IMG/VR virus record: IMGVR_UViG_3300032047_002742
Coordinates: 1 to 22,862 of that record
DNA length: 22,862 bases
Strand: one strand, 5' to 3'
From: a virus
Of this stretch, positions 6,712 through 21,125 are shown in pieces. The stretch's first letter is position 1. Each line of letters begins with the position of its first letter. Below the pieces are notes generated by a model, which saw only the letters and a program-made list of their open reading frames with translations, was not told where the DNA came from and ran no database searches. Made by a program: the position numbers and the translations under genes.

Positions 6712-6716
6712 CATAT

Positions 6717-7173: not shown

Positions 7174-7180
7174 ATACCCT

Positions 7181-7594
7181 ATGTCGAAAAGTAACATAAT
7201 ACAATTTCCTACTAAGCTCAGGCAACAACAGATTGCAAGAGATCAATTGTTCGAATCTGAAGAATATTTAGAAGAATTAAACATACATGAAGATTGTATC
7301 TCATTGGCTAGATTTTGCTTAACTCTTATAGATGAAGCTGCAATAGAACATTATGATAGCGCATTTGATATGAATGTGCTAAAATCAGACGAATATAAAG
7401 ATATGTTCGTTATATTGAATTTATTAGTTTCTGTGTTTATGCGTAGTCAAGATCAAAAACATATATTGCAAGATGATTTAACTGAATTATATGCTAAATT
7501 AAAAATATTAGAATACCATGCAGATGACGGTGAAGAAATAGATTTCGACAATTTAATTATAAAGGATGAAACTGAAGAAGATGATATTACTTGA
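7181..7594 (+). CDS. Acidic hypothetical protein
   Basis: This codes for 137 residues, mostly helical and acidic, with a very acidic C-terminus (KDETEEDDIT). No motif is recognised. The N-terminus (SNIIQFPTKLRQQQ) is basic. It starts seven bases after a clear -10 box, so the mRNA is probably leaderless. Its 3' end overlaps the start of the RNase H gene, which implies coupled translation and suggests, without proving, a link to replication. Confidence 0.7.
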   Translation: MSKSNIIQFPTKLRQQQIARDQLFESEEYLEELNIHEDCISLARFCLTLIDEAAIEHYDSAFDMNVLKSDEYKDMFVILNLLVSVFMRSQDQKHILQDDLTELYAKLKILEYHADDGEEIDFDNLIIKDETEEDDIT

Positions 7595-8922: not shown

Positions 8923-8980
8923 GGAGGTGATCAAGACTATTTTGTGATTGGTATTTTTTAATCAATTATTAATAAGGAGG
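8920..8980 (+). promoter_or_regulatory. Two strong Shine-Dalgarno sequences without a gene
   Basis: TAAGGAGGTGATC (8920-8932) is complementary over 13 bases to the 3' end of bacterial 16S rRNA. A second TAAGGAGG lies at 8973-8980. Neither is followed by a usable start codon and open frame: the first is followed by TTG-TGA (8942-8947) and by a five-codon GTG frame, the second by no start within 15 bases. They could be ribosome decoys, leader-peptide signals, or relics of a lost gene. Confidence 0.4.
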
Positions 8981-9005
8981 ACACGCCAAAGAATTTACGA
9001 GTAAA

Positions 9006-9035
9006 CCCCTATCTGCAGGTAGGGGTGTACTTTTT
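9006..9035 (+). terminator. Rho-independent-type terminator
   Basis: CCCCTATC (9006-9013), loop TGCA, GGTAGGGG (9018-9025): an eight-base-pair stem with one G-T pair, followed by TGTAC and a run of five T. It would end the transcript from the 7145 promoter. The bases just after the stem also form the -35 of the next promoter. Confidence 0.7.
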
Positions 9036-9054
9036 ACCAAAAATGTGGTATAAT
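9026..9054 (+). promoter_or_regulatory. Early-type promoter, leaderless
   Basis: TGTACT (9026-9031), a 17-base spacer ending in TGTGG, and TATAAT (9049-9054). The ATG at 9062 is seven bases after the -10. Confidence 0.83.
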
Positions 9055-9061
9055 ATATATT

Positions 9062-9613
9062 ATGAATATTTTTATTTTAGATAATGATCCCGTGAAAGCT
9101 GCTCAAATGCAGTGCGACAAACACGTCGTAAAAATGATAGTGGAATCAGGACAAATGCTTTCAACAGTCCATCGTATGCTCGATGGAACTATGGAACGTA
9201 GACCATCAAAGTCAGGATCTATGTTGCAATATTGGAAACTAGACGACGAAAGAGAAGAGTTGTTATATAAAGCATGTCATTTTAATCATCCATCAACTGT
9301 ATGGACAAGAGAATCAATGCACAATTATAGATGGCATTATGTTCATTTTATGGCACTATGTAAGGAATACACATATCGTTATGGAAAAGTACATTCTACT
9401 GAAAAATATTTAGCAGATGCTTTAGCTAGAATTCCTGATAATATACCAGTTAAAAAAATGACTCCATTCAAATTAGCAATGGCAGCATTTCCTGAATGTA
9501 TAACTGAAGATCCAATAGAATCTTATAGAAATTTCTACGAAACAAAACAAGAACGATTTAAAATGGTGTGGACAAAACGCCAACAACCGGAGTGGTTTAA
9601 TGCCAAGATATGA
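9062..9613 (+). CDS. Conserved phage protein with Cys/His-rich motifs, unknown function
   Basis: This codes for 183 residues. The N-terminus carries a conserved-looking motif, DNDPVKAAQMQCDKHVVKM, with one Cys and one His. Further His, Cys and Trp residues follow (ACHFNHPSTVWTRES, YRWHYVHFMALC, KRQQPEWF). I recall this family from many marine T4-like phages but know no established activity. The pattern of His and Asp would suit a metal-dependent enzyme or DNA-damage glycosylase-like protein; that is speculation. The gene has its own early-type promoter with the ATG at the expected transcription start, and overlaps the next gene by 14 bases. Confidence 0.78.
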   Translation: MNIFILDNDPVKAAQMQCDKHVVKMIVESGQMLSTVHRMLDGTMERRPSKSGSMLQYWKLDDEREELLYKACHFNHPSTVWTRESMHNYRWHYVHFMALCKEYTYRYGKVHSTEKYLADALARIPDNIPVKKMTPFKLAMAAFPECITEDPIESYRNFYETKQERFKMVWTKRQQPEWFNAKI

Positions 9614-9845
9614 TTTTAAAAACTTAAAGACGGGTGAAATTGCCGAATACACTATGAGTTGGAAAGAATTAGACAAATTTAAGGAAGATAATCCAGATCT
9701 ACAGCAACAAATTGGAACATCGAATATGATTCGAGGTAAAGAAGGTTCTATGCTTAATAAAGCTGGTGATGGATGGAAGGAAGTCCAAGATAGAATTAAA
9801 AGTGGAATGCCACCAAGATTGCGGGACAATGTAAGAACAAAATGA
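9600..9845 (+). CDS. Small protein resembling a cysteine-less FmdB-type domain
   Basis: This codes for 81 residues. The beginning, MPRYDFKNLKTGEIAEYTMSWKELDKF, is like the opening strands of FmdB-type zinc ribbons common in phages, but there is no cysteine anywhere, so no zinc site. The rest is polar, with GDGWKEVQDRIKSGMPPR near the end. The start lies inside the previous gene and the stop overlaps the next start (ATGA). The function is unknown. Confidence 0.7.
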   Translation: MPRYDFKNLKTGEIAEYTMSWKELDKFKEDNPDLQQQIGTSNMIRGKEGSMLNKAGDGWKEVQDRIKSGMPPRLRDNVRTK

Positions 9846-10081
9846 GAATACTACACAATTTAGTAATAGTTCAAATTATAATTATTTTATCAATATTACT
9901 ATTCACATCAAGCTGTTCATCTATTGAAATTATAGATGGATTATGCTATAATGATAAAGATGGAACATATATGTGTGAAGAAGAAATAGAAATACCATCA
10001 GAACCAATTGATCAATGGGAACTTTGTGAACCATGGTTATATGAACCAGAGACATGGGTAAATTGCATGATGATAGCATAA
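9842..10081 (+). CDS. Small putative lipoprotein
   Basis: This codes for 79 residues. It has an N-terminal signal with a long hydrophobic core (residues 7-21) and a lipobox-like TSSC with Cys25; the -3 residue is Thr rather than the usual Leu, so the lipobox is imperfect. The mature part is short, acidic and contains four further cysteines, suitable for two disulfides in the periplasm. It overlaps both neighbours (ATGA and TAATG). The role is unknown; small phage lipoproteins can act in superinfection exclusion or as envelope factors, which is inference only. Confidence 0.62.
   Translation: MRILHNLVIVQIIIILSILLFTSSCSSIEIIDGLCYNDKDGTYMCEEEIEIPSEPIDQWELCEPWLYEPETWVNCMMIA
9924..9952 (+). promoter_or_regulatory. 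Possible internal sigma70-type promoter
   Basis: TTGAAA (9924-9929), 17 bases, TATAAT (9947-9952), with TATGC just before the -10. It lies inside the lipoprotein gene about 125 bases before the nuclease gene. It differs from the TGTACA family. Because the same bases code for protein, it may be chance. Confidence 0.3.
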
Positions 10082-10752
10082 TGTTTGATATATCAGAATT
10101 AAATAACACACCATACGGATTAGAACAAGTAAATGGTGGACCAGGCGGAAGATACTATACTGATCCAGATGGAGATAAGTATTATAGCATTACAAATGTA
10201 CTATCAATATTAAGTGAAGAAAGCATTCAAAAATGGAGAGCTAAAGTTGGTGAAGAAGAAGCAAATAGAATTTCTAGAAATGCTTCATCAAGAGGTAACG
10301 AAGTACATGATATGTTAGAAGCATTTGTATTAAATGCAGCAGGTGCACCAAATCCAAGTTTAATAGCTCAATCAAACTTTAGAGATATTAAACCTATTAT
10401 AGAAAAGAATTTAACAAAGGTTTATGCTACTGAAAAAAGAATGTATTCAAAGCATTTAGGTGTAGCTGGAACAGTAGATTGTGTTGGAGTATGGGATAAT
10501 AAGATAAGTATTATAGACTGGAAAACTTCAGCAAAATATAAGAAAAAAGAATGGATATCAAATTACTTTATGCAAGCGGCAGCTTATGCTATTATGTGGG
10601 AAGAAAGAACAGGTCAACCAATAACTCAATTAGTGGTGGCCATTGCAGGAGATGTAGAACCTCAAATATTTATCGAAAAACGTGATAATTGGACTGAGGA
10701 TTTAATAAATACTATAACAGAGTTTAAAAGAAGAAAACTCTTTGGGAGATAA
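10081..10752 (+). CDS. PD-(D/E)XK nuclease (RecB-like exonuclease)
   Basis: This is a 223-residue nuclease of the PD-(D/E)XK superfamily. RGNEVHDMLE (71-80) carries the conserved His of RecB-like nucleases. Asp133 (GTVDCVG) and Asp146-W-Lys148 (IIDWKTS) are the metal and catalytic core. MQAAAYA (164-170) supplies the Q-x-x-x-Y motif. It probably degrades or processes DNA ends during phage recombination or host DNA breakdown. An in-frame ATG at 10054 would add nine residues, but the 10081 ATG overlaps the previous stop as TAATG, the common junction here. Confidence 0.87.
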   Translation: MFDISELNNTPYGLEQVNGGPGGRYYTDPDGDKYYSITNVLSILSEESIQKWRAKVGEEEANRISRNASSRGNEVHDMLEAFVLNAAGAPNPSLIAQSNFRDIKPIIEKNLTKVYATEKRMYSKHLGVAGTVDCVGVWDNKISIIDWKTSAKYKKKEWISNYFMQAAAYAIMWEERTGQPITQLVVAIAGDVEPQIFIEKRDNWTEDLINTITEFKRRKLFGR

Positions 10753-10754
10753 GA

Positions 10755-10961
10755 ATGGCAAATTATACAGACGGAATTATGGAAGCATTAACACTTAAAT
10801 TAAAAGGTGAAATTGCTACTCATAGAATGAATATTAAAATTATGATAGGTTCACATGCAGGTGTTGCAGAACATCCTGATATGATTACCACTATTGATGG
10901 TGAATTGGAGAAATTAGCGACAGCTCAAGATAAATTGAACACTCTATCAGAATTAAAATAA
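10755..10961 (+). CDS. Small helical hypothetical protein
   Basis: This codes for 68 residues. It is predicted all-helical, with GEIATHRMNIKIMIGSHAGVAEHPDM in the middle and a C-terminal heptad-like helix (ELEKLATAQDKLNTLSEL). A GGGAG at 10745-10749 serves as ribosome site just before the ATG. I recall similar short proteins in marine T4-like phages with no known role. The following promoter starts at the base after its stop. Confidence 0.68.
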   Translation: MANYTDGIMEALTLKLKGEIATHRMNIKIMIGSHAGVAEHPDMITTIDGELEKLATAQDKLNTLSELK

Positions 10962-10964
10962 GCA

Positions 10965-10993
10965 TGTACAAATGCTAAAAACTATGGTATAAT
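10965..10993 (+). promoter_or_regulatory. Early-type promoter, leaderless
   Basis: TGTACA (10965-10970), a 17-base spacer ending in TATGG, and TATAAT (10988-10993). The ATG at 11000 is six bases after the -10. Confidence 0.85.
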
Positions 10994-10999
10994 ATACCC

Positions 11000-11599
11000 A
11001 TGAAAACGTTCACAGAGATTCGTGAAGGAAAAGGTCTGACGATCTTTGATATAGATGATACTATGTTTAAAACTTCTGCGAAAGTTGTCGTTTTAAATAC
11101 CAAAACTGGTAAGAAAAAAACATTAACTCCTAAACAATATAATACATATAAACTAGGTGGTAATGAAGAATTTGATTATGGTCAATTCAAATCTGCAAAA
11201 CTGTTTCAACAAACAGCTGTGCCGATCGGAAAAATGATCAAAAAGTTTAAAGCAATCTTAAGGAATGCAACCAAAAAAGGATCTAAAGTTATTATCGTAA
11301 CTGCAAGAGCCGATATGGATGATAAAAAATTATTCCTTAATACTTTTAGATCTCATGGAATAGATATCGATAATGCTCATATTATTAGAGCAGGTAACTT
11401 AGGTCTAAAAGGTAGCGCTGACGCAAAGGCGGTAATCTTTAAACAATTCCTCGATACTGGGGAATATTCCACAATAAGACTTTTTGATGATGATGTAAGT
11501 AATTTAAAAGCTTTATTATCTCTTAAAGATGAATATAATAATGTGTCATTCGAAGCTTGGAAAGCAAACGATAAAGGACAAATAAAACGATTGAAATAA
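11000..11599 (+). CDS. HAD-family phosphatase-like protein
   Basis: This is a 199-residue HAD-superfamily protein. Motif I is FDIDDT with Asp17 (nucleophile) and Asp19, motif II Thr101 (IIVTARAD), motif III a Lys in the 143-148 stretch (AKAVIFK), and motif IV FDDD (162-165). It would remove phosphate from a nucleotide, nucleic acid 3' end or small molecule; T4 polynucleotide kinase has a comparable HAD phosphatase domain, but there is no kinase domain here. The N-terminus MKTFTEIRE resembles the T4 capsid-targeting sequence and contains an I-x-E motif. The ATG sits at the expected transcription start. Confidence 0.85.
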   Translation: MKTFTEIREGKGLTIFDIDDTMFKTSAKVVVLNTKTGKKKTLTPKQYNTYKLGGNEEFDYGQFKSAKLFQQTAVPIGKMIKKFKAILRNATKKGSKVIIVTARADMDDKKLFLNTFRSHGIDIDNAHIIRAGNLGLKGSADAKAVIFKQFLDTGEYSTIRLFDDDVSNLKALLSLKDEYNNVSFEAWKANDKGQIKRLK

Positions 11600-11601
11600 A
11601 C

Positions 11602-11811
11602 ATGCCTACAAAATTTAAAGAATCTCAAATTACAAGAGATAGACAGACCGGAAAATATACTACAACTCACTATTGGATAAAAGGTATACCGCAAAAAGAA
11701 TTATTTGATACTATTAATAGTTCTAATGCTAAACCTAAACTTAAGCAGAAATGTAGAAATGAATTGGTCAGAAGAGGCATAAAAATAGTATACGTACCAA
11801 AAGAGGCATAA
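11602..11811 (+). CDS. Small basic conserved phage protein
   Basis: This codes for 69 residues and is rich in Lys and Arg, with the conserved-looking core ELFDTINSSNAKPKLKQKCRNELVRRGI. I recall this from marine T4-like phages as a protein of unknown function; the charge suggests RNA or DNA binding. It is two bases after the HAD gene and directly before the SET gene, so all three share the 10965 promoter. Confidence 0.72.
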   Translation: MPTKFKESQITRDRQTGKYTTTHYWIKGIPQKELFDTINSSNAKPKLKQKCRNELVRRGIKIVYVPKEA

Positions 11812-12129
11812 ATGAATTTTAAGAATGGATATAAACCATTATGTGATGGTTTAAAGGTTGGACCTGGAGTGCATGGAAACGGAATAATAGCAACCGAAGA
11901 TTTCAAAGCTGGAATATTTTTAGGAGAAACACATATATGGTGTTCTCAACGAAGAGATTGGATTAGAACACCTTTAGGTGGATTTTTGAATCATTCTGAG
12001 GATCCAAATTGTTATGTGAATAACAATATTCATTATCATCACGGTGATCAACGAGAATTATTTACAGTTAGACCTATTATAGAAGGTGAAGAATTAACAG
12101 TGTATTATACATTGGCAGAATATGAATGA
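11812..12129 (+). CDS. SET-domain protein (putative protein lysine methyltransferase)
   Basis: This is a 105-residue minimal SET domain. The first SET strand region is GVHGNGIIATEDFKAGIFLGE (19-39). The SAM-binding and knot motifs are N60-H61-S62 with P65-N66-C67 (FLNHSEDPNC), and the C-terminal motif is EGEELTVYY (91-99), with the catalytic tyrosine. At about 100 residues it has no pre- or post-SET domains. It would methylate lysines of a host or phage protein using S-adenosylmethionine; the target is unknown. Histone-like HU or ribosomal proteins would be reasonable candidates, which is inference. It overlaps the next gene by one base. Confidence 0.8.
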   Translation: MNFKNGYKPLCDGLKVGPGVHGNGIIATEDFKAGIFLGETHIWCSQRRDWIRTPLGGFLNHSEDPNCYVNNNIHYHHGDQRELFTVRPIIEGEELTVYYTLAEYE

Positions 12130-12290
12130 TGAAATATATATGGAAAGTTTGGGCAGCTTCTCTCGGAGAAAAGGCAAAGGAAGGTTCTGATACATTCAGT
12201 GATCACGTTGCATTATTTAGAACAGCAGTGGTTTTAGTTAACTTTCTTACGTGTTTCGTTATAACGGCTGGAATCATCCACCATTGGTAG
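12129..12290 (+). CDS. Small single-pass membrane protein
   Basis: This is a 53-residue reading frame starting at an ATG that overlaps the SET gene stop (TGATG). The first half is amphipathic and the second half is one transmembrane helix (about residues 30-50, TAVVLVNFLTCFVITAGII) ending in HHW. Similar short proteins ending in 'IIHHW' occur in marine T4-like phages (from memory). The function is unknown. Confidence 0.6.
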   Translation: MKYIWKVWAASLGEKAKEGSDTFSDHVALFRTAVVLVNFLTCFVITAGIIHHW

Positions 12291-12322
12291 GATTAGTTTT
12301 AAGACCTTGTTTATTCTACCTG

Positions 12323-12342
12323 ATTTCATAAGCTTATGAAAT
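12323..12342 (+). repeat. Perfect 20-base palindrome
   Basis: ATTTCATAAG and its exact reverse complement, centred on AAGCTT, followed by a T-rich stretch (12342-12360). It lies in the 103-base gap between two small genes. It could be a weak AT-rich terminator or a binding site for a dimeric regulator. A loose TATAAT at 12365-12370 follows, without the TGTACA box. Confidence 0.5.
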
Positions 12343-12396
12343 TTCTTTAATTCTTTCTTTAACATATAATTTATACTATTTATACACGGGAAAATG

Positions 12397-12609
12397 ATGA
12401 CTGAACAATGGCATGGAGGAAAAGGTTCTAAAAGAAGAAATTCTGATGAAAGTAAATACGCAGATAATTGGGATTTAATTTGGGGAAACAAAAAACGTGG
12501 GGCTGTAGCTCAGTTGGGAGAGCGCGTCCCTTGCACGGATGAGGTCGCAGGTTCGACCCCTGTCAGCTCCACCACTATTAAAAATGATAAAGATATTAAA
12601 AAAGATTAA
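12397..12609 (+). CDS. Small conserved phage protein whose frame runs through the tRNA gene
   Basis: The N-terminal part (MTEQWHGGKGSKRR, then DNWDLIWG) matches a short conserved protein I recall from T4-like marine phages, which normally ends shortly after the 'NWDxIF/W' segment. Here no stop codon follows; the frame continues through the whole tRNA-Ala gene and ends at TAA 12607-12609. That gives 70 residues, of which about the last 36 are translated tRNA and flank sequence. An ATG at 12394 is also possible, but the GGGA ribosome site is better spaced for 12397. Confidence 0.6.
   Translation: MTEQWHGGKGSKRRNSDESKYADNWDLIWGNKKRGAVAQLGERVPCTDEVAGSTPVSSTTIKNDKDIKKD
12499..12574 (+). tRNA. tRNA-Ala (anticodon TGC)
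   Basis: This is a complete 76-base cloverleaf with encoded CCA. The acceptor stem GGGGCTG pairs with CAGCTCC (12564-12570), including the G3-U70 pair that marks alanine tRNAs. The D stem is GCTC/GAGC. The anticodon stem CGTCC/GGATG has loop CTTGCAC, with anticodon TGC at 12532-12534. The T stem GCAGG/CCTGT has loop TTCGACC. The discriminator base is A. It reads GCA codons, which are frequent in these genes. The gene lies inside the extended frame of the small protein above. Confidence 0.97.
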
Positions 12610-12817
12610 AAATTGGGTTGATCCTAATTATTGGGCAGAACAAATTGGTGAGAATTCTGGCGCCTATGATAAAGCTCGAAACAGTAAACTCAGACAATGG
12701 GTAGATAGTTTAGAAGGTTGGAAATGGTGGGCTTGGCAGTTAGGTCCATGTCTACTTATATTCATATTATTAGAGTTGGGTTTGAACCAACTTGGTATGA
12801 CAATGTTACCATGGTAA
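12584..12817 (+). CDS. Trp-rich single-pass membrane protein
   Basis: The ATG at 12584 gives 77 residues; an upstream in-frame ATG lies within the tRNA and is not credible. The N-terminal half is charged (MIKILKKIKNWVDPNYWAEQ) and has several Trp. A transmembrane helix covers about residues 50-70 (GPCLLIFILLELGLNQLG). No good ribosome site is visible. The function is unknown. Confidence 0.6.
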   Translation: MIKILKKIKNWVDPNYWAEQIGENSGAYDKARNSKLRQWVDSLEGWKWWAWQLGPCLLIFILLELGLNQLGMTMLPW

Positions 12818-12823
12818 TAAAAG

Positions 12824-12982
12824 ATGAAAATTAAAAAAGAAACAATCAAAATTCCAAAGGTGAAACATCGCAGAGTTACTCCTGCACATGCAATGACGAA
12901 AGTCGAGAGAGATAAATCAAATTATACTCGTAAAGAGAAGTATTCTTATATAAATACTATAAGAGACGAAGAGGACATTTAA
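12824..12982 (+). CDS. Small basic protein (52 residues)
   Basis: This is a frame of 52 codons starting with MKIKKETIKIPKVKHRR and ending YINTIRDEEDI. It lies between two real genes with gaps of six bases and none, so it is probably genuine. It is strongly basic except for the acidic end. The late promoter at 12949-12956 lies within its 3' end, and the next gene's ATG starts at the base after its stop. Confidence 0.55.
   Translation: MKIKKETIKIPKVKHRRVTPAHAMTKVERDKSNYTRKEKYSYINTIRDEEDI
12949..12956 (+). promoter_or_regulatory. T4-type late promoter (TATAAATA)
   Basis: Perfect TATAAATA inside the end of the small basic gene. The next ATG is 26 bases on, with a GAGGAC ribosome site (12971-12976), so this promoter gives a conventional short leader. 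Confidence 0.75.
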
Positions 12983-13249
12983 ATGGCAGACATAAATTTA
13001 GATTTCGACTTTGGTTTTACAGCCGTAGACGAACATGAATTAGAAGCAGTACAATCTGTTACTAAAACCGCTTCAACAGCATCAGCAGATTTAGCTGAAG
13101 CAGAAGCAAAATTAGGAAAGTTATATAACGCAATATTACCATTGCTATCTAACTTAAAGAAAAATCCTGAAAAGGAATATATACTCTGGCCTAATCGTAC
13201 AGAGAAGATCGAAGAATTTGAAGATGTTATTGCTAACATTATCAAATGA
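12983..13249 (+). CDS. Conserved marine T4-like phage protein
   Basis: This codes for 88 acidic residues. The opening LDFDFGFTAVDEHELE and the later KLGKLYNAILPLLSNLKKNPEKEYILWPNRTEKIEEFE are features I recognise from many marine T4-like phages. The middle is an Ala-rich helix. The function is not established; a late promoter directly upstream suggests a virion or assembly role. Confidence 0.8.
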   Translation: MADINLDFDFGFTAVDEHELEAVQSVTKTASTASADLAEAEAKLGKLYNAILPLLSNLKKNPEKEYILWPNRTEKIEEFEDVIANIIK

Positions 13250-13261
13250 AGATTGTAAATA

Positions 13262-13269
13262 TATAAATA
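13262..13269 (+). promoter_or_regulatory. T4-type late promoter (TATAAATA)
   Basis: Perfect TATAAATA in the short gap before the next gene. The ATG at 13291 has an AAGAGGA ribosome site (13277-13283). Confidence 0.8.
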
Positions 13270-13290
13270 GTTATTTAAGAGGAAAATAAA

Positions 13291-13542
13291 ATGGCAGTAA
13301 TAAGACTATTAGGATCAGAAGCAGGAATTGCCTCTGCATCTAACGTTGGCTTTGCTAAATTAGTAAGAGTTTTGAACAATAAAACTTCAGTACAAGTTAT
13401 AACACAGAAAAATGCAGGTGGTACTACTCTTGCAACTGTGACATTAGCAGCTGGTGAAGTAGGATATATTCAAAAAGCTCCTTCTGATACACTTGCAGGA
13501 GCAGCTACATCGTTAGCAGTTTCTGTGGCATTCGCTAATTAA
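13291..13542 (+). CDS. Small beta-rich protein, possible virion component
   Basis: This codes for 83 residues, rich in Ala, Val, Thr and Gly, with no charged clusters (MAVIRLLGSEAGIASASNVG, TTLATVTLAAGEVGYIQKAPS). The composition is typical of small structural or decoration proteins. It has its own late promoter and a good ribosome site, so it should be strongly expressed late. Relatives occur in marine T4-like phages (from memory) without defined function. Confidence 0.75.
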   Translation: MAVIRLLGSEAGIASASNVGFAKLVRVLNNKTSVQVITQKNAGGTTLATVTLAAGEVGYIQKAPSDTLAGAATSLAVSVAFAN

Positions 13543-13553
13543 TTAAATGAATC

Positions 13554-13991
13554 ATGGCCTATTCAAAGCAAGTAGTAGACAGATTTGAATCTGTTTTAAA
13601 CTCTCCAGAGAAATTCTCTGTAGGCCGATTCGATCCCAAAGAATCCAATGTAGCAACCGGAATGACAGGGGCACCAGCGTGTGGTGATGTCATGAAGCTA
13701 CAACTGAAATTGAATGATGACGAGCAAATCGTTGACGTCAAATTTAAAACATACGGATGTGGTTCAGCAATCGCATCTTCTTCATTATTCGTTGATATGC
13801 TTATGGGTAAAACCATAGACGAAGCTAAGCAAGTTAAAGATAAAGATATTGCAGCAGCTTTAGAACTTCCGCCTATCAAACTTCATTGTTCTGTATTGGC
13901 CGAAGATTCTATTCGCAAAGCCATAGAAAATTGGGAAGATAAAAAAGCCCATAGACAGCACAATCGAGGTCCAAATGATCGAGTTAACTAA
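13554..13991 (+). CDS. iscU: IscU-like Fe-S cluster scaffold
   Basis: This codes for 145 residues and is closely similar to bacterial IscU, which assembles [2Fe-2S] clusters and hands them on. The cluster ligands are all present: Cys43 with Asp45 (GAPACGDVMKL), Cys69 (TYGCGSAIASSS), His111 and Cys112 (LHCSVLAED), each shifted by six from E. coli. The LPPIK motif (105-109) that the HscA chaperone binds in IscU is retained. The C-terminal 13 or so residues (HRQHNRGPNDRVN) are an extension, partly forced by the overlap with the next gene. No cysteine desulfurase is seen here, so the host IscS must supply sulfur. Confidence 0.95.
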   Translation: MAYSKQVVDRFESVLNSPEKFSVGRFDPKESNVATGMTGAPACGDVMKLQLKLNDDEQIVDVKFKTYGCGSAIASSSLFVDMLMGKTIDEAKQVKDKDIAAALELPPIKLHCSVLAEDSIRKAIENWEDKKAHRQHNRGPNDRVN

Positions 13992-14292
13992 TGAAGCAAT
14001 ACAGCAACTCACATCAAAAACCCAAGATGCGGGGAATGATACTATACGAATTGGGTATCATCCTGGGGGTTGCAACGGTTTTAAATATATTTTGGATTAT
14101 GCTGATACAGTACATACTGACGATCACGTAATCGATTATGGCAATTTTCTAATCGTAGTAGAAACTGGTCAACTACACAACTTTACTGGATTAACCTTAG
14201 ACTATGTCACAGAAGGTCTCAATTCAGAATTTAAATTCATAAATCCAAATGCAACTGCGTCCTGTGGTTGTGGAGAATCTGTCTCTTTTTAA
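13975..14292 (+). CDS. iscA: IscA/ErpA-like A-type Fe-S carrier
   Basis: This is a 105-residue A-type carrier. The three cysteines are Cys33 (HPGGCNGFKY) and Cys97/Cys99 in the C-terminal CGCGESVSF, with the same spacing as E. coli IscA (35, 99, 101). It would receive a cluster from IscU and deliver it to target proteins. The gene overlaps iscU by 17 bases, so the two are translationally coupled. Targets could be host or phage Fe-S enzymes outside this window. ErpA and IscA cannot be told apart by motif alone. Confidence 0.93.
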   Translation: MIELTNEAIQQLTSKTQDAGNDTIRIGYHPGGCNGFKYILDYADTVHTDDHVIDYGNFLIVVETGQLHNFTGLTLDYVTEGLNSEFKFINPNATASCGCGESVSF

Positions 14293-14312: not shown

Positions 14313-14320
14313 TATAAATA
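14313..14320 (+). promoter_or_regulatory. T4-type late promoter of the curli-like operon
   Basis: Perfect TATAAATA with the ATG only five bases after it (14326). No other late promoter and no clear terminator is seen from here to 21125, so it probably drives the whole curli/FecR/cyclase cluster. Confidence 0.78.
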
Positions 14321-14325
14321 GTACT

Positions 14326-14619
14326 ATGGAAATATTTGAACTCATAATGGAGGTAGGTACACCGATTGCCGGATCTCTGGTGATGGGCTATTTTATATTC
14401 TTAATATTAAGACAGATTTTAGGTGGTCTCGTTGATTCTATCGCCACTCTTACTATGTTCACTAAGAGCTTAGAAACTAGAGTAACGACTATGAATAATG
14501 AGATGATAAAGATAGATTTATTGGTGAGTAGCGCATTGGAACTTACACCACCCGTCGACAGAGTAGCAAGAGCGTCAAACTTTGTCGAGGATGGTAAAAT
14601 CGATGCAAGGAGAGATTAA
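14326..14619 (+). CDS. One-helix membrane protein A (holin- or YvrJ-like)
   Basis: This codes for 97 residues: a short N-terminus, one transmembrane helix (about 12-32, GTPIAGSLVMGYFIFLILRQ), then a helical cytoplasmic or periplasmic part. The first 40 residues align with those of the next gene (G-x-PI...V/A-MGYFI...), so the two look like tandem paralogues. The pattern recalls YvrJ-type and holin-like one-helix proteins. Being first in the operon, these could form the inner-membrane side of the export or lysis process. The ATG is five bases from the late -10. Confidence 0.65.
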   Translation: MEIFELIMEVGTPIAGSLVMGYFIFLILRQILGGLVDSIATLTMFTKSLETRVTTMNNEMIKIDLLVSSALELTPPVDRVARASNFVEDGKIDARRD

Positions 14620-14945
14620 TGGATGTTCTTGAACAAGATCCTACATTAGTTGCTCTCATCAACGATTATGGATTTCCAATTGTTTTGGCAGTTGGAATGG
14701 GATATTTTATATACTACGTATGGCAGTTTATATCCAATGAATTAGAACCTGAAATAGAAAAGATGCATTTTGCTCTTATCAGGTTAATTGATCAAGTTCG
14801 AATGCTCGATCAAGATATGATACGATTACAGCAGAAGGTAAATGTTGTACTCGAATATAGAGAGAGACAAAAATTCTTAGAAGATATTGAGGAAAAGGAA
14901 GCTCTCGCGGAGAAACAGAATGAAGATAAAAAACCTAAGAGATAA
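14619..14945 (+). CDS. One-helix membrane protein B (paralogue of A)
   Basis: This codes for 108 residues. A transmembrane helix lies at about 19-37 (FPIVLAVGMGYFIYYVWQF), followed by a long charged coiled-coil-like helix (EPEIEKMHFALIRLIDQVRMLDQDMIRLQQKV) and a Lys/Glu tail. It shares the G-F-PI...MGYFI core with the preceding gene. An AAGGAGAG site lies before its ATG, which shares a base with the previous stop. Its 3' end overlaps csgF by 26 bases, so membrane protein B and the curli exporter are co-translated. Confidence 0.65.
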   Translation: MDVLEQDPTLVALINDYGFPIVLAVGMGYFIYYVWQFISNELEPEIEKMHFALIRLIDQVRMLDQDMIRLQQKVNVVLEYRERQKFLEDIEEKEALAEKQNEDKKPKR

Positions 14946-15480
14946 ATTAGAAGTAACTACTTTAATTGGGATTTTTGTATTATCAGTATTAAGCTTAACG
15001 CCAAATGCTAATGCTGATGAATTAGTACATGAATTTAAAAATCCGTCATTTAGCGGAGTTGGTACATCATCACATTATCTTACTATTGAGAATCAGGAAT
15101 TTAGCAGAAAACAAGCTATTGCTGATGACATAGAAAGTGCTTTACAAGCAGCACAAAGAGATGCTGAAAATACTACTTTAGCTAAATTTATGCGAAACCT
15201 CGAATCGAGGATTTATGCCCAATTAAGTAAACAACTGGTAGAAGAGTTATTTAAAGCATGTTCAGCTGAAGCAATTGCTGCTGGAACATGTACAGAAACA
15301 ACATATGGTAGTTTTATACTTGAAGGTAATACGATTACATATCAAAAAACAACATGTGATGCTAGTTTGTGGGCATGTACTCAAGGCGATGATGTCATAG
15401 TTATGACAATTATTGCTGAAGATGGCACAGAAACACAAATAGTAATTCCAATAGGTGCAGGAACAGCAGGCGGTGATTAA
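14920..15480 (+). CDS. csgF: CsgF-like curli assembly factor
   Basis: This codes for 186 residues. A signal peptide runs from MKIKNLRDKLE through a hydrophobic core to ...NANA, with cleavage expected before DELV. The mature N-terminus HEFKNPSFSG matches the E. coli CsgF start (FQFRNPNFGG), the segment that plugs into the CsgG pore and forms the second constriction. As in CsgF, the C-terminus has paired beta strands (GDDVIVMTIIAEDGTETQIVIPIG). It is about 50 residues longer than E. coli CsgF, with an inserted Ala-rich helical part and a Cys-containing loop. An ATG with a GGAG ribosome site fixes the start; an upstream in-frame start at 14887 is less likely. In curli systems CsgF sits at the cell surface and guides fibre nucleation. 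Confidence 0.85.
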   Translation: MKIKNLRDKLEVTTLIGIFVLSVLSLTPNANADELVHEFKNPSFSGVGTSSHYLTIENQEFSRKQAIADDIESALQAAQRDAENTTLAKFMRNLESRIYAQLSKQLVEELFKACSAEAIAAGTCTETTYGSFILEGNTITYQKTTCDASLWACTQGDDVIVMTIIAEDGTETQIVIPIGAGTAGGD

Positions 15481-16450
15481 GAAATTTATCGGAATATTCT
15501 TCGGAGTCATTCTTATGCAAGGATGTGCTTCGATTGTGCCACCAAATGGATTATCAGCTACAAACTGTAATCCATCATTAAATTTAGCATGTGTAGAAGC
15601 TCCACAAGTTGTAGAATTACCTACATATGAACAATTAAGGAATTTACCTGGAAGGCCAGAAGAGAAACAAATAGTTGTAGCAGTATACGGATTTCCTGAC
15701 AAAACAGGTCAAAGAAAACAAAAAGGAAATGCTGCAATGTTTAGTACTGCTGTATCACAAGGCGGTGATACAATGCTTATTGATGCATTAAAAAATGCTG
15801 GATCAGGACAATGGTTCAGAGTAGTAGAACGTGTAGGAATAGATCATCTTACACGTGAACGTCAAATAGTTCGTACTACAAGAGAACAATATGGAGAAGA
15901 AGATAAAACTGGTTTAGCACCACTTCTTTTCGCAGGAATCATTCTCGAGGGAGGTATCATAGGATTTGATACTAATATCGAGACAGGGGGAATAGGAGCT
16001 AGAACACTCGGAATTGGTTATTCACAACAATACCGCAGAGATATAGTTACAGTTTCGCTTAGAGCTGTTAGCACATTAACAGGTGAGATTTTATTAAATG
16101 TGCAAACATCAAAAACCATTTTGTCTATAGCTGATGGTTATGATGTCTTTAAGTTCGTTGATATGGACACCCAACTTGTAGAAATAGAAGATGGAATGAC
16201 AGAAAACGAATCTGTAACACGGTCACTTCGCTCAACAATTGAAGCAGCTGTGTTAGAAATGATATACCAGGGGGAGAAACTCGACTTCTGGAAAATAAAC
16301 TGGCCAATGGAGCAAATAATAGAAGGTAAAGTCGAAAAGATTATTGACGAAGCCGAAATAATATTAGTTCCTGAGTCCGAAGATAACTCAGAAGTAGATC
16401 TTCCAGTGGAAGTACCTACTCCTGATAACATAGAGGAAATAAGAGGATGA
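15473..16450 (+). CDS. csgG: CsgG-like outer-membrane curli secretion channel
   Basis: This is a lipoprotein of about 325 residues. Its beginning (MIKKFIGIFFGVILMQGC) ends in a lipobox-like MQGC with Cys18. The CsgG domain is clear throughout: VAVYGFPDKTGQ, FSTAVSQGG, VVERVGIDHLTRERQIVR, GGIIGFDTNIETGGIGAR, TGEILLNVQTSKTIL. CsgG forms a nonameric beta-barrel that exports curlin through the outer membrane. At the constriction, E. coli Tyr51 and Asn55 are replaced by Gly and Met while Phe56 is kept (ungapped from FSTAV). The C-terminus has an acidic extension of roughly 50 residues. The start is the GTG at 15473; another GTG at 15455 would lengthen the signal. It overlaps csgF by eight bases. 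Confidence 0.95.
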   Translation: MIKKFIGIFFGVILMQGCASIVPPNGLSATNCNPSLNLACVEAPQVVELPTYEQLRNLPGRPEEKQIVVAVYGFPDKTGQRKQKGNAAMFSTAVSQGGDTMLIDALKNAGSGQWFRVVERVGIDHLTRERQIVRTTREQYGEEDKTGLAPLLFAGIILEGGIIGFDTNIETGGIGARTLGIGYSQQYRRDIVTVSLRAVSTLTGEILLNVQTSKTILSIADGYDVFKFVDMDTQLVEIEDGMTENESVTRSLRSTIEAAVLEMIYQGEKLDFWKINWPMEQIIEGKVEKIIDEAEIILVPESEDNSEVDLPVEVPTPDNIEEIRG

Positions 16451-17175
16451 ATATTTTTAAAAGATATATCGCATTCGCTCTTTTATTATGCCCTGTAATT
16501 GTGTTCGCTGGTGCCAATGACAACAAAATTCTTTTAGATCAATCTGGAGATACACTAAAGCTATACGTAGACCAAATCGGTTATGGTAATAAGCTTTGTG
16601 GAACTATCTCAAGTGGAGATTGTGCTACTGATTGGGTTTTAACTGGTAATACCGTCACGATGGATATAGATATGATCGGTAATTTGAACCAAATCTTTGG
16701 TCCAACACTATTTGATTCTACTGATGTTGACTTAAAGTTAACTGGAAGTAGTAACATATGGGATTGGAACGTAGGTTATGGTGGAAGTGCTGATTCGTCC
16801 GTAATGGACGTTGACATAGCTGGATCTTCAAATACTTTCGATATAGATTGGGGCTATACAGCCTCAGCTGAAAGACTGGATTTTGATTTAGATATAACTG
16901 GTGGATCGAACGTTTGGAATATTGATATTAATGCTGATGATGTAACTTGGAATGTAGATGTTATTGGAAGTTCAAATAACTTCTTAACAACACAATCTGA
17001 TGGTGCATACAATTCAATAACAATGGAATATATAGGTTCAAACGGTGATATTGATATTATTCAATCATCTGGTACATGCCCATCTGGTGTGAGCGGGTGT
17101 TATGGAGTAATAAGTGCGGATTTTGATACAGAAAATGGTATTGTTGACATTAAGCAAAAAGATACTGCTGACTAG
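16447..17175 (+). CDS. Curlin-repeat protein A (degenerate CsgA/CsgB type)
   Basis: This codes for 242 residues. A signal peptide ends at ...VIVFA, before GANDN. The mature part is a row of about seven units of roughly 20-25 residues, each with a G-x-x-N core: VDQIGYGN, DMIGNLNQ, LTGSSNIW, IAGSSNTF, ITGGSNVW, VIGSSNNF. Only the first unit keeps the canonical curlin Q-x-G-x-x-N; in the others Gln is replaced. Asp is strikingly frequent. Two cysteine pairs occur, one near the start (LCGTISSGDC) and one near the end (TCPSGVSGC). It is probably a beta-solenoid or amyloid-like subunit exported by CsgG. The ATG overlaps the csgG stop. Confidence 0.78.
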   Translation: MNIFKRYIAFALLLCPVIVFAGANDNKILLDQSGDTLKLYVDQIGYGNKLCGTISSGDCATDWVLTGNTVTMDIDMIGNLNQIFGPTLFDSTDVDLKLTGSSNIWDWNVGYGGSADSSVMDVDIAGSSNTFDIDWGYTASAERLDFDLDITGGSNVWNIDINADDVTWNVDVIGSSNNFLTTQSDGAYNSITMEYIGSNGDIDIIQSSGTCPSGVSGCYGVISADFDTENGIVDIKQKDTAD

Positions 17176-18283
17176 TTTATTACTGATTAGTTCAACAGCT
17201 TTTGCCAATGATGTTGGCAGTATAACTGAACACAAGGGCAGTGGTGGAATAACTCGTGAAGGCGAGTCATTTGCCACTGATCTTGGTTTAGGTGTAGTCG
17301 CTATGGATCATATTGAAACGGTCAATGGTAGACTTAAATTAGATTTTATAGATACGTCAGTACTTAGATTAACGGAACATACTGAAGTAACTCTATACGA
17401 ATATTATTATAATAAAGACACCAAAGATGGTGGAATAGGTATGAAAATGGTCAGTGGTACTGCACGATTTTCTACTGGAAGATTAGGATTATTACCTAAA
17501 GAAAATATAGTAATTGAAACTCCAACCGCCACAGTGGGCGTACGTGGGACGGATTTTACTACATCAGTCGATGAGTTAGGAAGAAGTTTAGTAATTCTCC
17601 TACCGGAAACTGAGTGTACTATAGATGGTGATTGTTCACCATCAGGAGAAATTACAGTCACAAATGAGGGTGGTGTAGTTGTACTCTCTGAAGCATATCA
17701 AGCTACAATGGTATCGAGTTATGGAACATCACCATCTCAACCTGTTACGCTTCAAAATGTAAATTTAAATATGATTGACAATATGTTTATTGTTAATCCT
17801 CCTCAAGAAATAAAGGAACAACAAGATGAAAGTCAAAGTAATGCTAAAGGCAGTTCTAATGGCCTACTTGATTTCACTGAGCTCGATACTGATTATCTGG
17901 CCGATGATTTTTTAGCAGAAGATGATTTAGAATTCAATGAACTCGACATGGATCTTCTCGATGTCGACTTCTTACAAGATGTTTTAGTTGCTTTAGAAGA
18001 AGTTAATATATTAAAGCAAAAAAGAGTATTATCTTCATCATCCGGATCAGGAGATATTACGGGAACCACCGCACCAGGATTTGATAAGACAACACAATAT
18101 AATACAATTATAGATCAAGGTGCTGGACAAATTTGGTTCTATAGAGAAGTAAACGGAGTAATATCGGTAAGAATACCGATAGGTTCAGGAACAACGTTGG
18201 AGAGTGAAAATGAAGGACAAAAAAATCTTATTACTGTTGGCGATGGTCAGTCTGTCGTTATCGTCATTCGTCAAGGCGGGTGA
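17135..18283 (+). CDS. FecR-domain secreted protein
   Basis: This codes for 382 residues. A signal peptide (to ...STAFA) precedes a FecR domain (about 26-155) with the hallmark TPTATVGVRGTDF at 130-141. After it come a Ser/Gln-rich linker and an acidic segment (247-281) in which the pattern F-x-E-L-D-x-D-x-L-x-x-D-F-L is repeated twice. A C-terminal beta-rich domain ends in VVIVIRQGG. FecR domains sense or bind envelope ligands; free FecR proteins occur beside CHASE2 proteins in bacteria (from memory). The start is inside curlin A with a 41-base overlap; a GTG at 17114 is an alternative. The 3' end overlaps curlin B by 74 bases. Confidence 0.82.
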   Translation: MVLLTLSKKILLTSLLLISSTAFANDVGSITEHKGSGGITREGESFATDLGLGVVAMDHIETVNGRLKLDFIDTSVLRLTEHTEVTLYEYYYNKDTKDGGIGMKMVSGTARFSTGRLGLLPKENIVIETPTATVGVRGTDFTTSVDELGRSLVILLPETECTIDGDCSPSGEITVTNEGGVVVLSEAYQATMVSSYGTSPSQPVTLQNVNLNMIDNMFIVNPPQEIKEQQDESQSNAKGSSNGLLDFTELDTDYLADDFLAEDDLEFNELDMDLLDVDFLQDVLVALEEVNILKQKRVLSSSSGSGDITGTTAPGFDKTTQYNTIIDQGAGQIWFYREVNGVISVRIPIGSGTTLESENEGQKNLITVGDGQSVVIVIRQGG

Positions 18284-19028
18284 TGAGCACAACCATATTG
18301 ATATAGATCAAGTCAATTCAGGAGATAATTTAAATCTCGGTATAGAACAAATTGGTCATACTAATTTGGTCAAATTTTCATTTGATCATAACAATAATAC
18401 TATAAATCTTTTACAATTAGGAAACAACAATTATATTGGTTGGACCGATTCATGGGGTTCTGGATATAGTTGGGGTGGAGATTTAGATGGATTAAGTAAT
18501 AATCTTGATATTCGACAAAAATGTTCTGTATCAAGTTGCGCAGATAATGATTTCCAATTTCATGTTTTAGGAGATAGTAATACAGTTAAATTTGGTCAAG
18601 GTTATTCATTAAACGATACTTCAAATTGGACACCAACGTGGAATTACGATGGTAATGAGCCCGGAGGAAATTTTGTAAGGCTGGACATGCATGGTGATAA
18701 TAATAAATTTGTTGGAAGTCAAAAAATGGATACCGCTGGTATTACACATTCAATCACAGCTAATGTATATACTGATAATAACGACATATTTATTAGACAA
18801 GCACAAAATGGAAATAAAACATTTACTATGACAATAAGAAATTCAAATGGTAATGATGTAATGGTTAATCAAAGAGATAACGGTGCACATACTGCAGTAG
18901 TAAATTTATTAGGATCATATCCTACAGATTTAGATCTTGTTCAAAAGGGAAGTACTGCTCAATCTTATACATTATCTCAAAACTGTTTAACCGCCACGGG
19001 TTGCTCAATAAGCATTACACAAGAATAA
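18210..19028 (+). CDS. Curlin-repeat protein B (CsgB-like)
   Basis: This codes for 272 residues. A signal peptide (MKDKKILLLLAMVSLSLS to ...VKA) is followed by curlin-type units IEQIGHTNLVKF and LLQLGNNNYIGW that keep Q-x-G-x-x-N, then units with LGDSNTVKF and MHGDNNKFVG, and later QAQNGNKTF and NQRDNGAHT. The rest is Asn/Asp-rich. Two Cys pairs occur (KCSVSSC and NCLTATGC), placed like those in curlin A. It may be the nucleator or a second fibre subunit. A GGAGAG ribosome site sets the ATG at 18210; a GTG at 18204 is less likely. The gene overlaps FecR by 74 bases, the longest overlap here. Confidence 0.78.
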   Translation: MKDKKILLLLAMVSLSLSSFVKAGDEHNHIDIDQVNSGDNLNLGIEQIGHTNLVKFSFDHNNNTINLLQLGNNNYIGWTDSWGSGYSWGGDLDGLSNNLDIRQKCSVSSCADNDFQFHVLGDSNTVKFGQGYSLNDTSNWTPTWNYDGNEPGGNFVRLDMHGDNNKFVGSQKMDTAGITHSITANVYTDNNDIFIRQAQNGNKTFTMTIRNSNGNDVMVNQRDNGAHTAVVNLLGSYPTDLDLVQKGSTAQSYTLSQNCLTATGCSISITQE

Positions 19029-19038
19029 TTAATGTGTA

Positions 19039-19260
19039 ATGGAAAAGTCAAAGTCCAAGGTAGAACGAACATTTTCTACCGAAGTGCGTATGCCATATCA
19101 AGATGCAATTGGTCTAATTCTTCATATGATAGATTATCATAATATTCAAATGATAAAATATCCAGAAGAACAAATATTTCATGAGAAACAAGCTTTAAGA
19201 TTGAAGAATTGGTTAATTGATATGAAAACTTGGATTCACCAACAAGAAGAACAAATATGA
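19039..19260 (+). CDS. Small soluble hypothetical protein
   Basis: This codes for 73 residues. It is basic and helical, with His/Gln-rich content (MIDYHNIQMIKYPEEQIFHEKQALRLKNWLIDMKTWIHQQEEQ). It starts 10 bases after curlin B and overlaps the cyclase gene by four bases (ATGA), so it belongs to the operon. No family is recognised; a cytoplasmic partner of the cyclase is possible but unproven. Confidence 0.68.
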   Translation: MEKSKSKVERTFSTEVRMPYQDAIGLILHMIDYHNIQMIKYPEEQIFHEKQALRLKNWLIDMKTWIHQQEEQI

Positions 19261-21125
19261 AATATATTACATCGTTTTGGACAGTTGCTATTGTCATTGT
19301 ATTAGGTTTAGTAATTAGAGTAGCCGATATCAAACCTGTTGAACAAATACGTTTAATGGGTTTTGATGCTAAAATACAATCTATTCCCCAAACAAAATCA
19401 GAAGATATCGTTTTACTTGATATCAGTGAAGAAACTCTTGGCAAATGGGGACAATATCCATTACCAAGACAATACTATGCTCAAATAATTTCAGATTTAA
19501 TTAATGCAAATGCTGGAATCAAGGCCTTCACAATAATGTTTCCTGAGCCGGATCGGTTAGGTGGAGATCCTGCATTTGAATCGTGGATTAAAGGTTCTGG
19601 TGTTGTCCTATCACAGAAAGCCGATGCTCGAGGAAGGAATGATGTAGCTCCATATGTAGGCACCGCCCAAGCCGGGGAGGGAGATCCATATCAGTTCGTA
19701 CAAAAATATAATAAGATACTAACAAACATTCCTATGCTAGAAGATGACGCATGGGGCATAGGGATGATAAATGTATCCCCAGAAATAGACGGGTTGGTAC
19801 GAAGAATGCCTCTAGTTGTGCAGGCTAATAATAAGTTATATCCTTCTCTACCTGTCGAAATAATACGAGCAGAGAAACAAACAAAGGGTTATACAATAAA
19901 GACAGAAGAAACTGGAGTAGTGGATCTGTTTATACCACCAAAATTATATGCTGAAACAGATAATGTTGGAAGGGTATGGATTAATCCTTCAATAAAGTTT
20001 GATCGTTATTCTGCTGGAGTGGATGTTCTTCCAGATCTTCAGGGGAAAACAGTTCTGATTGGAGTTTCTGCTCTCGGGATAGTGCCACAGAGTCCGACTC
20101 CGTCAGGGTTAAAGCTTCCTCATGAGATTCAAGCATCTGTTCTTGCGACAATCCTGGAAGGTGGTCTTCAAGCTTCTTCATCAATAATCCGTCCGATTTG
20201 GGCGAATCTACTGGAAATAAGTCTAATTCTAATTGGGTCTCTGTTAATTCTGGTTTGTTCATATCGTTTTTCCGCATATTATGGTGCAATCGCCTTTGTG
20301 ACAGCTCTCGTTGCCTCCTACTTCTCATCAGCCTATTTCTGGTCGAATTCAATGTATCTCCTTGATTGGACATTCGCTATAGTATTATATATAATAGTAT
20401 TCGCGCATGCAAGTTTTAATAACTTTTGGATTCAGTTTAAACTTAGGCAACAAATTAAGGGTCAATTTGGTACATATCTATCACCAGATATGGTTAACAT
20501 GTTAATTAAAGATCCAAGTTTGATGAAGCTTGGAGGTGATAGAAAAGAAATGACATTCTTATTTATGGATATCTGTGGATTTACTCCGATATCTGAGCAT
20601 TATAAGAATAATGATGATCCAGAAGGATTAGTAGAATTAGTCAATGAATTCCTTGATGCAATGACAAAAATCATTCTCAAAAATGGGGGAACAATTGACA
20701 AATATATGGGAGACTGCATAATGGCATTTTGGAATGCACCATTACCTTGTACAAATCATGCTGAAATGGCAGTTAAGTCAGCAATTGAAATAGAAGAAAA
20801 AGTAAATGAACTTAAAGAAGTCTATAAAGAACGTGGCCTTCCTGACATTAATGTTGGGACTGGTATTAACACCGGGGATTGTATTGTTGGTAACATGGGT
20901 AGTGAATCCAGATTTGACTATTCGGTTATTGGAGATGCAGTCAACCTTGCCGCTCGGCTCGAGGCCACTGCCGCACGACATGAATATATAGATCATAAGA
21001 CAATATATTCATCTTTCACAATGAAAGAACTCCCGTCTGGGTATGTCTCTCATGAGATTGGAAAAATCAAAGTAAAAGGCAAAGAAGAGCTAATTACAAT
21101 TTACTCCCCAACAGCTAAAAAATAA
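19257..21125 (+). CDS. CHASE2-domain class III adenylate cyclase (membrane)
   Basis: This codes for 622 residues. Residues 7-21 are the first transmembrane helix, and about 30-310 form an extracytoplasmic CHASE2 sensor domain (FDAKIQSIPQ, VLLDISEETLGKWGQYPLPR, GKTVLIGVSALGI). Three helices follow at about 316-336, 341-361 and 367-388. A class III cyclase domain (about 430-615) completes it: Asp438 (FLFMDICGFT) and Asp486 (KYMGDCIMAFW) for metals, Lys482 for adenine recognition, Asn563 and Arg567 (DAVNLAARLE) for the transition state. Lys with Ser556 fits class IIIb, ATP to cAMP. All catalytic residues are present. The ATG overlaps the previous stop; a TTG at 19230 is unlikely. Confidence 0.93.
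   Translation: MKYITSFWTVAIVIVLGLVIRVADIKPVEQIRLMGFDAKIQSIPQTKSEDIVLLDISEETLGKWGQYPLPRQYYAQIISDLINANAGIKAFTIMFPEPDRLGGDPAFESWIKGSGVVLSQKADARGRNDVAPYVGTAQAGEGDPYQFVQKYNKILTNIPMLEDDAWGIGMINVSPEIDGLVRRMPLVVQANNKLYPSLPVEIIRAEKQTKGYTIKTEETGVVDLFIPPKLYAETDNVGRVWINPSIKFDRYSAGVDVLPDLQGKTVLIGVSALGIVPQSPTPSGLKLPHEIQASVLATILEGGLQASSSIIRPIWANLLEISLILIGSLLILVCSYRFSAYYGAIAFVTALVASYFSSAYFWSNSMYLLDWTFAIVLYIIVFAHASFNNFWIQFKLRQQIKGQFGTYLSPDMVNMLIKDPSLMKLGGDRKEMTFLFMDICGFTPISEHYKNNDDPEGLVELVNEFLDAMTKIILKNGGTIDKYMGDCIMAFWNAPLPCTNHAEMAVKSAIEIEEKVNELKEVYKERGLPDINVGTGINTGDCIVGNMGSESRFDYSVIGDAVNLAARLEATAARHEYIDHKTIYSSFTMKELPSGYVSHEIGKIKVKGKEELITIYSPTAKK

Follow-up and report, generated by a model that had tools for sequence, protein, structure and literature searches.

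Phage curli modules and the locus analyzed here

Genes for curli-type (type VIII) secretion are carried by phages that have been reported to be widespread in the ocean (PMC9599517). In podoviruses of SAR11 bacteria (pelagiphages), Wittmers et al. 2022 (PMC9599517; for this and the other papers cited, statements refer to the available parts of the text) described CsgF, CsgG, CsgA/B and FecR, often together with a second curlin and an adenylate cyclase, as well as one or two "histidine kinases". The essential genes, FecR and the cyclase were likewise reported from myoviruses, an alphaproteobacterial origin was inferred, expression was seen in metatranscriptomes, and superinfection defence, aggregation and uptake were discussed as functions. 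Sibling capture has been proposed elsewhere (PMC7029224), and Buchholz et al. 2022 (PMC9004378) put forward a pore that times lysis. Superinfection block, aggregation and a lysis aid have each been proposed across these three papers, beyond which a literature search, not extending to full texts, found nothing further on phage curli.

Here, we analyzed a locus of this kind at positions 14313-21125 of the viral record IMGVR_UViG_3300032047_002742, all 22,862 bases of which are covered (hereafter, the window). We favour, with moderate confidence, the reading that it is a late phage type VIII secretion module of the published pelagiphage kind, in which export of a fibre would be combined with sensing by FecR, CHASE2 and a cyclase. 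An earlier note on this DNA had named a phage-borne curli-type export and signalling gene set, and all the elements that it listed were found in place. Of its overall interpretation, the export and signalling genes, the late placement and the conserved gene order stood, while the cyclic AMP (cAMP) route became doubtful and the statement that no complete set, including curlins, FecR and cyclase, had been reported had to be given up: PMC9599517 describes the whole set, so that the module as posed was already known, and the records of the isolates HTVC008M and Melnitz show the same order. What is new lies mainly in the reading of the sensor half, together with the finding of no kinase domain in the small proteins, the pairing of FecR with CHASE2, the doubtful CRP-type cAMP route and a start codon at the predicted transcription start.

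Compared with the pelagiphage module of PMC9599517, the window contains all of the same parts, namely small genes, the CsgF-CsgG pair, a curlin, FecR, a second curlin and a cyclase; no CsgC, CsgD or CsgE is described for either, and podo- and myoviruses are both represented. The window differs in that it adds a gene for a 73-amino acid (aa) protein before the cyclase gene, and in that the name "histidine kinase" used there was not supported here. HTVC008M (KC465899) has the same gene order at 6900-13807, followed by tail genes, and differs from the window in a CsgG of 49% identity, a PA14 domain on its second curlin and an extra late-promoter string 13 nucleotides (nt) before csgF. The order also recurs at 50118-56876 of Melnitz EXVC044M (MZ577097), which differs in its OM43 host and for which the text of PMC9004378 reports csgA and csgB to be lacking. 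Contrary to that text, the Melnitz GenBank record (L096) annotates two curlin-repeat proteins and FecR.

Layout and conservation of the module

The record has a T4-like gene content, with ribonucleotide reductase subunits, a T4-type RNase H, a PD-(D/E)XK exonuclease and DUF6433. At 14313-21125, a late-promoter string is followed by nine tightly packed genes, all on the plus strand. With FecR taken from 17135, the genes overlap at seven of eight junctions, in agreement with their earlier description as nearly all overlapping; the sole exception is a 10-nt gap 5' of the gene for the 73-aa protein (19039-19260). This protein had no family match in Pfam, PHROG and NCBIfam scans and was present in six loci including the window. 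None of the listed terminator-like sites lay between 21125 and 21361.

A scan with CsgG found a relative in 95 viral loci, of which the best 80 were kept; after removal of a duplicate and addition of the window and HTVC008M, 81 viral loci were available, which fell into 43 clusters when CsgG was grouped at 95% identity. Order was counted only in loci with enough sequence. CsgF lay directly 5' of CsgG in 78 of 78 loci (40 of 40 clusters) and was preceded by two small genes, here called H genes, in 70 of 73 (37 of 39 clusters). Directly 3' of CsgG, a curlin gene was found in 61 of 61 loci (36 of 36 clusters), and FecR came next after this first curlin in 44 of 44 (30 of 30 clusters). A second curlin was detected in 24 of 31 loci (18 of 23 clusters), the cyclase in 21 of 22 (18 of 19 clusters) and the entire run curlin-FecR-curlin-cyclase in 17 of 22 (15 of 19 clusters). 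Conservation of the gene order in relatives, which the earlier note had proposed as a check, was thus confirmed both in these loci and in the isolates. Separately, a 1.5-kb "Salmonella phage" record (OR851715.1) encodes a CsgG-like stretch and is probably host DNA.

The CsgF-CsgG pair and the curlins

The CsgF-like protein (14920-15480, plus strand, 186 aa) matched PF10614 at an E-value of 2.1e-10 as well as phrog_35372, and begins with a hydrophobic signal-type segment. The CsgG-like outer-membrane pore protein (15473-16450, plus strand, 325 aa, GTG start) matched PF03783 at 1.7e-48 and carries, by eye, the lipoprotein-type signal LMQGC. Signal-type N-termini were also present in both curlins and, by eye, in FecR. 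A curli-type pore is very probably encoded.

Curlin A (16447-17175, plus strand, 242 aa), which has beta-strand repeats after its signal-type N-terminus, and curlin B (18210-19028, plus strand, 272 aa) form a single family, with 140 of 143 iterative matches in the fetched loci in common. Neither reached the Pfam curlin model PF07012: curlin A matched no family at E<=0.1, curlin B gave one unrelated weak match, and the NCBIfam CsgA model scored the two at 0.0013 and 0.09, far below its cut-off. Among the relatives, the second curlin of HTVC008M, both Melnitz curlins and a curlin of L080 were above the PF07012 cut-off. A profile built from 35 first curlins of phage-type loci matched solved CsgA from Pontibacter (8c50) at 2.1e-10 and that from E. 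coli (8enq) at 0.0016. This phage-only profile further retrieved 14 of 1189 open reading frames (ORFs) of bacterial curli loci at E<=0.01 (best, 1e-5), all of which were already in the bacterial curlin list of an iterated search; it is the valid test, as the E-values of the iterated profile for bacterial curlins are inflated by the 22 bacterial sequences that it absorbed.

The AlphaFold model of curlin A was beta-rich (mean pLDDT 83.7). Foldseek returned no significant match for it, and VIA-align gave a Z of 16.1 against 8c50 but at an rmsd of 9.0, tied with unrelated beta-helices. As the structure matches were non-discriminating, the family call rests on sequence, and by the family profile the gene after CsgG encodes a predicted curlin. 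The second curlins vary at their N-termini: that of HTVC008M (L001:10638-11963) has a PA14 domain above the Pfam cut-off, which might be as in an exposed adhesin, and sub-threshold matches elsewhere were ThuA-like (L028) and carbohydrate-binding (L080). This varying part looks like an exchangeable portion of an adhesin.

The FecR-domain protein

The FecR-domain protein (17135-18283, plus strand, 382 aa; PF04773, 1.8e-10) carries a signal peptide by eye, and its ATG at 17135 was preferred over a GTG at 17114. In its model (mean pLDDT 71.3), the periplasmic FecR fold known from Fec-type iron signalling was predicted, with matches to the periplasmic FecR-type structures 6ovk (Z 15.7, rmsd 2.6, 135 aligned) and 4m0n (Z 13.8, rmsd 2.9, 136 aligned). 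A crude hydropathy scan found neither the cytoplasmic anti-sigma part nor the membrane helix of such regulators, and no sigma factor was detected among the nine module proteins by Pfam scan. Modelled residues 23-119 resembled the cell-surface anchoring domain 5ix9 (Z 10.9, rmsd 1.7, 71 of 76), a match also obtained by sequence (E = 4.4e-4, to a chain named antifreeze protein); 5ix9 is part of an RTX adhesin that is retained on the outer membrane. Past residue 240, only short pieces of the model were matched among the matches listed.

The FecR C-terminus consists of a conserved strand and a glutamine, with a phi-x-phi-x-Q motif at the end. A regular expression for curlin strands matched 28 of 40 FecR tails, where shuffled sequences would give 8.8; among 436 windows from other parts of these proteins, it matched 22. 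On a curlin score, the tails ranked below phage curlins (median 23.5) and above occurrences of the motif in other ORFs (median -22.4). Of 34 distinct tail windows, 26 exceeded the 95% level set by 518 other sites; the rest of FecR had a median of -9.6. Other tests spoke against this likeness. A score matrix from bacterial curlins reached p<=0.05 in 1 of 40 tails and 6 of 300 controls, in a test without a positive control and with a window that extends beyond the tail, and the Pfam curlin repeat was found in none of 10 FecR proteins. The curlin A profile matched FecR at 5.6e-6 (reversed sequences, 0.021), but within the FecR domain; on the tail stretches it gave E-values of 0.2 to 0.5 among the matches listed, and the curlin B profile did no better on FecR than on reversed sequences. 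The tail motif was lacking in the bacterial FecR proteins of L097, L098, L100 and L122. As these tests conflict, a curlin-like FecR tail remains a suggestion. An equivalence of the FecR C-terminus with the C-terminal domain of CsgF, compared by eye only, was set aside.

Gene pairing of FecR with CHASE2 and predicted output of the cyclase

FecR and the CHASE2 cyclase are encoded in the same gene cluster. A similar arrangement exists in the Burkholderia BiofilmReg operon (PMC5192318), a biofilm operon in which a FecR-LysM protein with a signal peptide adjoins a CHASE2 sensor; it differs from the module in its histidine kinase output, and curli genes are not named in the available text. In six genomes behind bacterial curli loci, 8 of 10 CHASE2 matches lay within 4 kb of a FecR match. 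Among 115 genomes drawn from the class of one of those six, 52 had CHASE2, 51 of them above the cut-off. In these 51 alphaproteobacterial genomes, FecR was found within 5 kb of 42 of 120 CHASE2 matches, compared to 0.98 expected from FecR density, within 2 kb of 31 (0.39 expected) and within 1 kb of 19 (0.20 expected). As the two adjoin far above chance, FecR is likelier to be the periplasmic partner of the cyclase than an iron regulator, and by this analysis we consider that role probable.

One Pelagibacter-family genome (G104; L122, G104:C1) has, on a 1.2-Mb contig, CHASE2 and FecR genes that are 1.3 kb apart and separated by a single gene; it gave no class III cyclase match. The alphaproteobacterial curli loci L087-L094 share with the module a CsgG with curlin genes close by, and differ in that neither FecR nor a CHASE2 cyclase was found in their fetched flanks; the same profile does detect FecR in other bacterial loci. 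In the simplest history, a curli cassette and a FecR-CHASE2 cassette would have been combined in a phage.

The cyclase (19257-21125, plus strand, 622 aa; PF05226, 1.9e-34; PF00211, 2.4e-19) is a CHASE2 class III adenylate cyclase with its catalytic residues in place: D447, K491, D495, S565, N572 and R576, numbered from the ORF start at 19230. We take D447 and D495 to be the metal aspartates, and K491, N572 and R576 to lie on the substrate side. Among the cyclases that cover the site, a count that includes L004, an identical copy of the window, as well as the window itself, the metal aspartates were conserved in 28 of 28 and 27 of 27, the lysine in 27 of 27 and the arginine in 26 of 26. The asparagine was retained in 24 of 26 (serine in L071 and L083), and the substrate position was serine in 19, threonine in five and aspartate in two. 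Its nearest relatives of solved structure bear the name adenylate cyclase, and the enzyme can be predicted with good confidence to be active.

The coupling to cAMP signalling proposed in the earlier note is doubtful on the receptor side. A cyclic nucleotide monophosphate (cNMP)-binding domain was found in 4 of 99 genomes from the family of a Candidatus Pelagibacter metagenome-assembled genome, which may not be the family of this phage's host, and in none of 16 phage records, 14 of them from IMG/VR and mostly fragments. A CRP-type route is therefore doubtful, and it is unlikely that a CRP-like host factor reads the signal; the apparent scarcity of cNMP-binding domains weakens the cAMP signalling reading. 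Class III cyclases were matched in 3 of the 99 genomes, two of them above the cut-off; both of these belong to csg modules, the contigs being 23 and 14.6 kb long and one of them also encoding portal and terminase. Two module-bearing contigs (L120 and L121) were binned in Pelagibacter-family genomes (G130 and G167); the portal and terminase genes of L120 show that this contig is binned phage DNA.

The late promoter

The T4-type late promoter string TATAAATA lies at 14313-14320 on the plus strand, and the ATG of the first gene starts 13 nt after its first base, with five bases between string and ATG. In the AT-rich window, NATAAATA occurs 12 times on both strands compared to a mean of 17 in shuffles, i.e., it is not rarer, and no other NATAAATA was found on the plus strand from 14321 up to where the module ends. 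Within -120 to +30 of the first gene, NATAAATA was present in 72 of 74 loci, many of which are near copies, with 0.054 expected per 150 nt; the exact TATAAATA stood near the first gene in 49 of the 74. The promoter was taken as real because its position is conserved, not because the string is rare, and the late placement put forward in the earlier note is retained as a prediction on these grounds.

The T4 late promoter string covers positions -13 to -6. Given the five-base spacing, the predicted transcription start is therefore the A of the ATG. Across the viral loci, 49 of 100 NATAAATA sites with an ATG ORF start 8-60 nt downstream had the ATG at exactly 13 nt, compared to 1 of 44 for a control string. 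Away from module genes, the proportion was 12 of 40 (some mutually homologous); HTVC008M (L107-L109) showed this spacing in 9 of 26 cases and a 50-kb stretch of T4 in 0 of 15. In the window, it is found at 6704-6717 in addition to 14313-14326, and the string upstream of csgF in HTVC008M (L001 7549-7562) is the exact TATAAATA. The pattern predicts that late promoters of these marine T4-like phages often give leaderless late mRNAs, on which no literature was found by title or abstract.

Small proteins and neighbouring genes

H1 (14326-14619, plus strand, 97 aa) and H2 (14619-14945, plus strand, 108 aa) are paralogues of one family (phrog_18771), with 24% identity in their alignment. They had been described as two one-helix membrane proteins, which held for H1, with one membrane-type hydrophobic segment, but was not confirmed for H2, whose hydrophobic segment was below the threshold of the crude hydropathy scan. 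Histidine kinase domains (HisKA, HATPase) were found at E<=1 in none of 21 family members, made up of 13 and a further eight, four of the latter from contigs in Pelagibacter-family bins; L120 was included, and the podovirus genomes of PMC9599517 were not among the 21. The printed label "histidine kinase" is accordingly not supported for the proteins scanned. A search of 50,697 phage records with H2 gave six matches, in HTVC008M and Melnitz strains. H2 also weakly resembled YvrJ (E = 0.055; relatives, 0.048 and 0.1) and the holin family phrog_4898 (0.012, below any cut-off). As all of these matches are sub-threshold, a holin identity of H1 or H2 is not claimed.

Immediately upstream of the module, at 13554-14292, are IscU-like and IscA-like Fe-S assembly genes. 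Of 60 loci, 12 had IscA and 11 had IscU within 1.5 kb upstream of the module; L121 had both. Elsewhere in the window, genes for an acyl carrier protein and a class 3 lipase lie near each other at 574-2435.

Proposed function and alternative explanations

In the reading that we favour, CsgG and CsgF would form an outer-membrane pore in the infected cell, through which curlins A and B would exit and assemble as a surface fibre; gene content, order and family assignments make such fibre export probable. FecR would stay periplasmic as the partner of the cyclase's CHASE2 sensor, as the pairing of FecR and CHASE2 in bacteria suggests, and a cyclic-nucleotide signal could thereby reflect periplasmic conditions or the state of fibre export. 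The likeliest benefit may be that infected cells or debris adhere or aggregate, or that there is protection against other phages. Several observations weigh against this reading. A Pfam scan of the nine module proteins detected no CsgE, and Melnitz cultures were reported to show no clumping (PMC9004378). The second curlin was undetected in 7 of 31 loci and the cyclase in 1 of 22, and neither can therefore be indispensable. Further, 78 of the 120 bacterial CHASE2 matches had no FecR within 5 kb, and the low number of genomes with a cNMP-binding domain has been mentioned above.

After Buchholz et al. 2022, CsgG and CsgF might instead be a gated pore or pinholin that times lysis, to which the curlins are irrelevant. 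The late-promoter placement, the weak resemblance of H2 to YvrJ and a holin family and the absence of clumping in Melnitz cultures are in line with this. However, the holin resemblance is below any cut-off, a curlin follows CsgG and FecR follows the curlin in every locus that could be checked, the pore stands alone in none of these, and the Melnitz GenBank record itself carries the curlin-repeat proteins and FecR. We consider a pore without a fibre improbable. Uptake, an option in Wittmers et al. 2022, would have an ungated pore and an iron-responsive FecR import cofactors or siderophores. It would fit the missing CsgE gate, the name FecR and the Fe-S assembly genes immediately upstream in some relatives, but FecR has a signal peptide and no cytoplasmic anti-sigma part, the module has no sigma factor, the FecR family adjoins CHASE2 in bacteria and the pore was never seen without a curlin in the loci checked; this explanation is less probable still. 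That the locus is an assembly chimera of phage and bacterial DNA, which the rarity of CsgG matches in Pelagibacter-family genomes (3 of 99, always on a short contig) might suggest, is refuted by the isolates: the order is fixed in the 81 viral loci of 43 CsgG clusters and in isolate genomes rather than scattered, T4-like genes lie on the same record and the fetched flanks of the bacterial curli loci L087-L094 gave no FecR or cyclase, so that we regard the locus as a fixed phage module.

The reading of fibre export coupled to FecR-CHASE2 sensing can be taken one speculative step further. Given the 5ix9-like anchoring fold of its N-terminal part and a possible curlin-like half repeat at its extreme C-terminus, FecR could cap or hold a curlin chain where CsgG opens into the periplasm. 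It might then act as a gauge of fibre export that signals to the cyclase by way of CHASE2, the phage having joined the curli and FecR-CHASE2 cassettes into a self-monitoring amyloid exporter expressed from a leaderless late mRNA; we put this forward tentatively, as rather unlikely in its entirety.

The revised roles, i.e., no histidine kinase, FecR as a likely partner of CHASE2, and curlin and FecR always with the pore where this could be checked, weaken some of the published readings. They bear on the question of the module's function in hosts without curli. Should the self-monitoring exporter prove true, the phage would encode an envelope sensor of an unusual kind.

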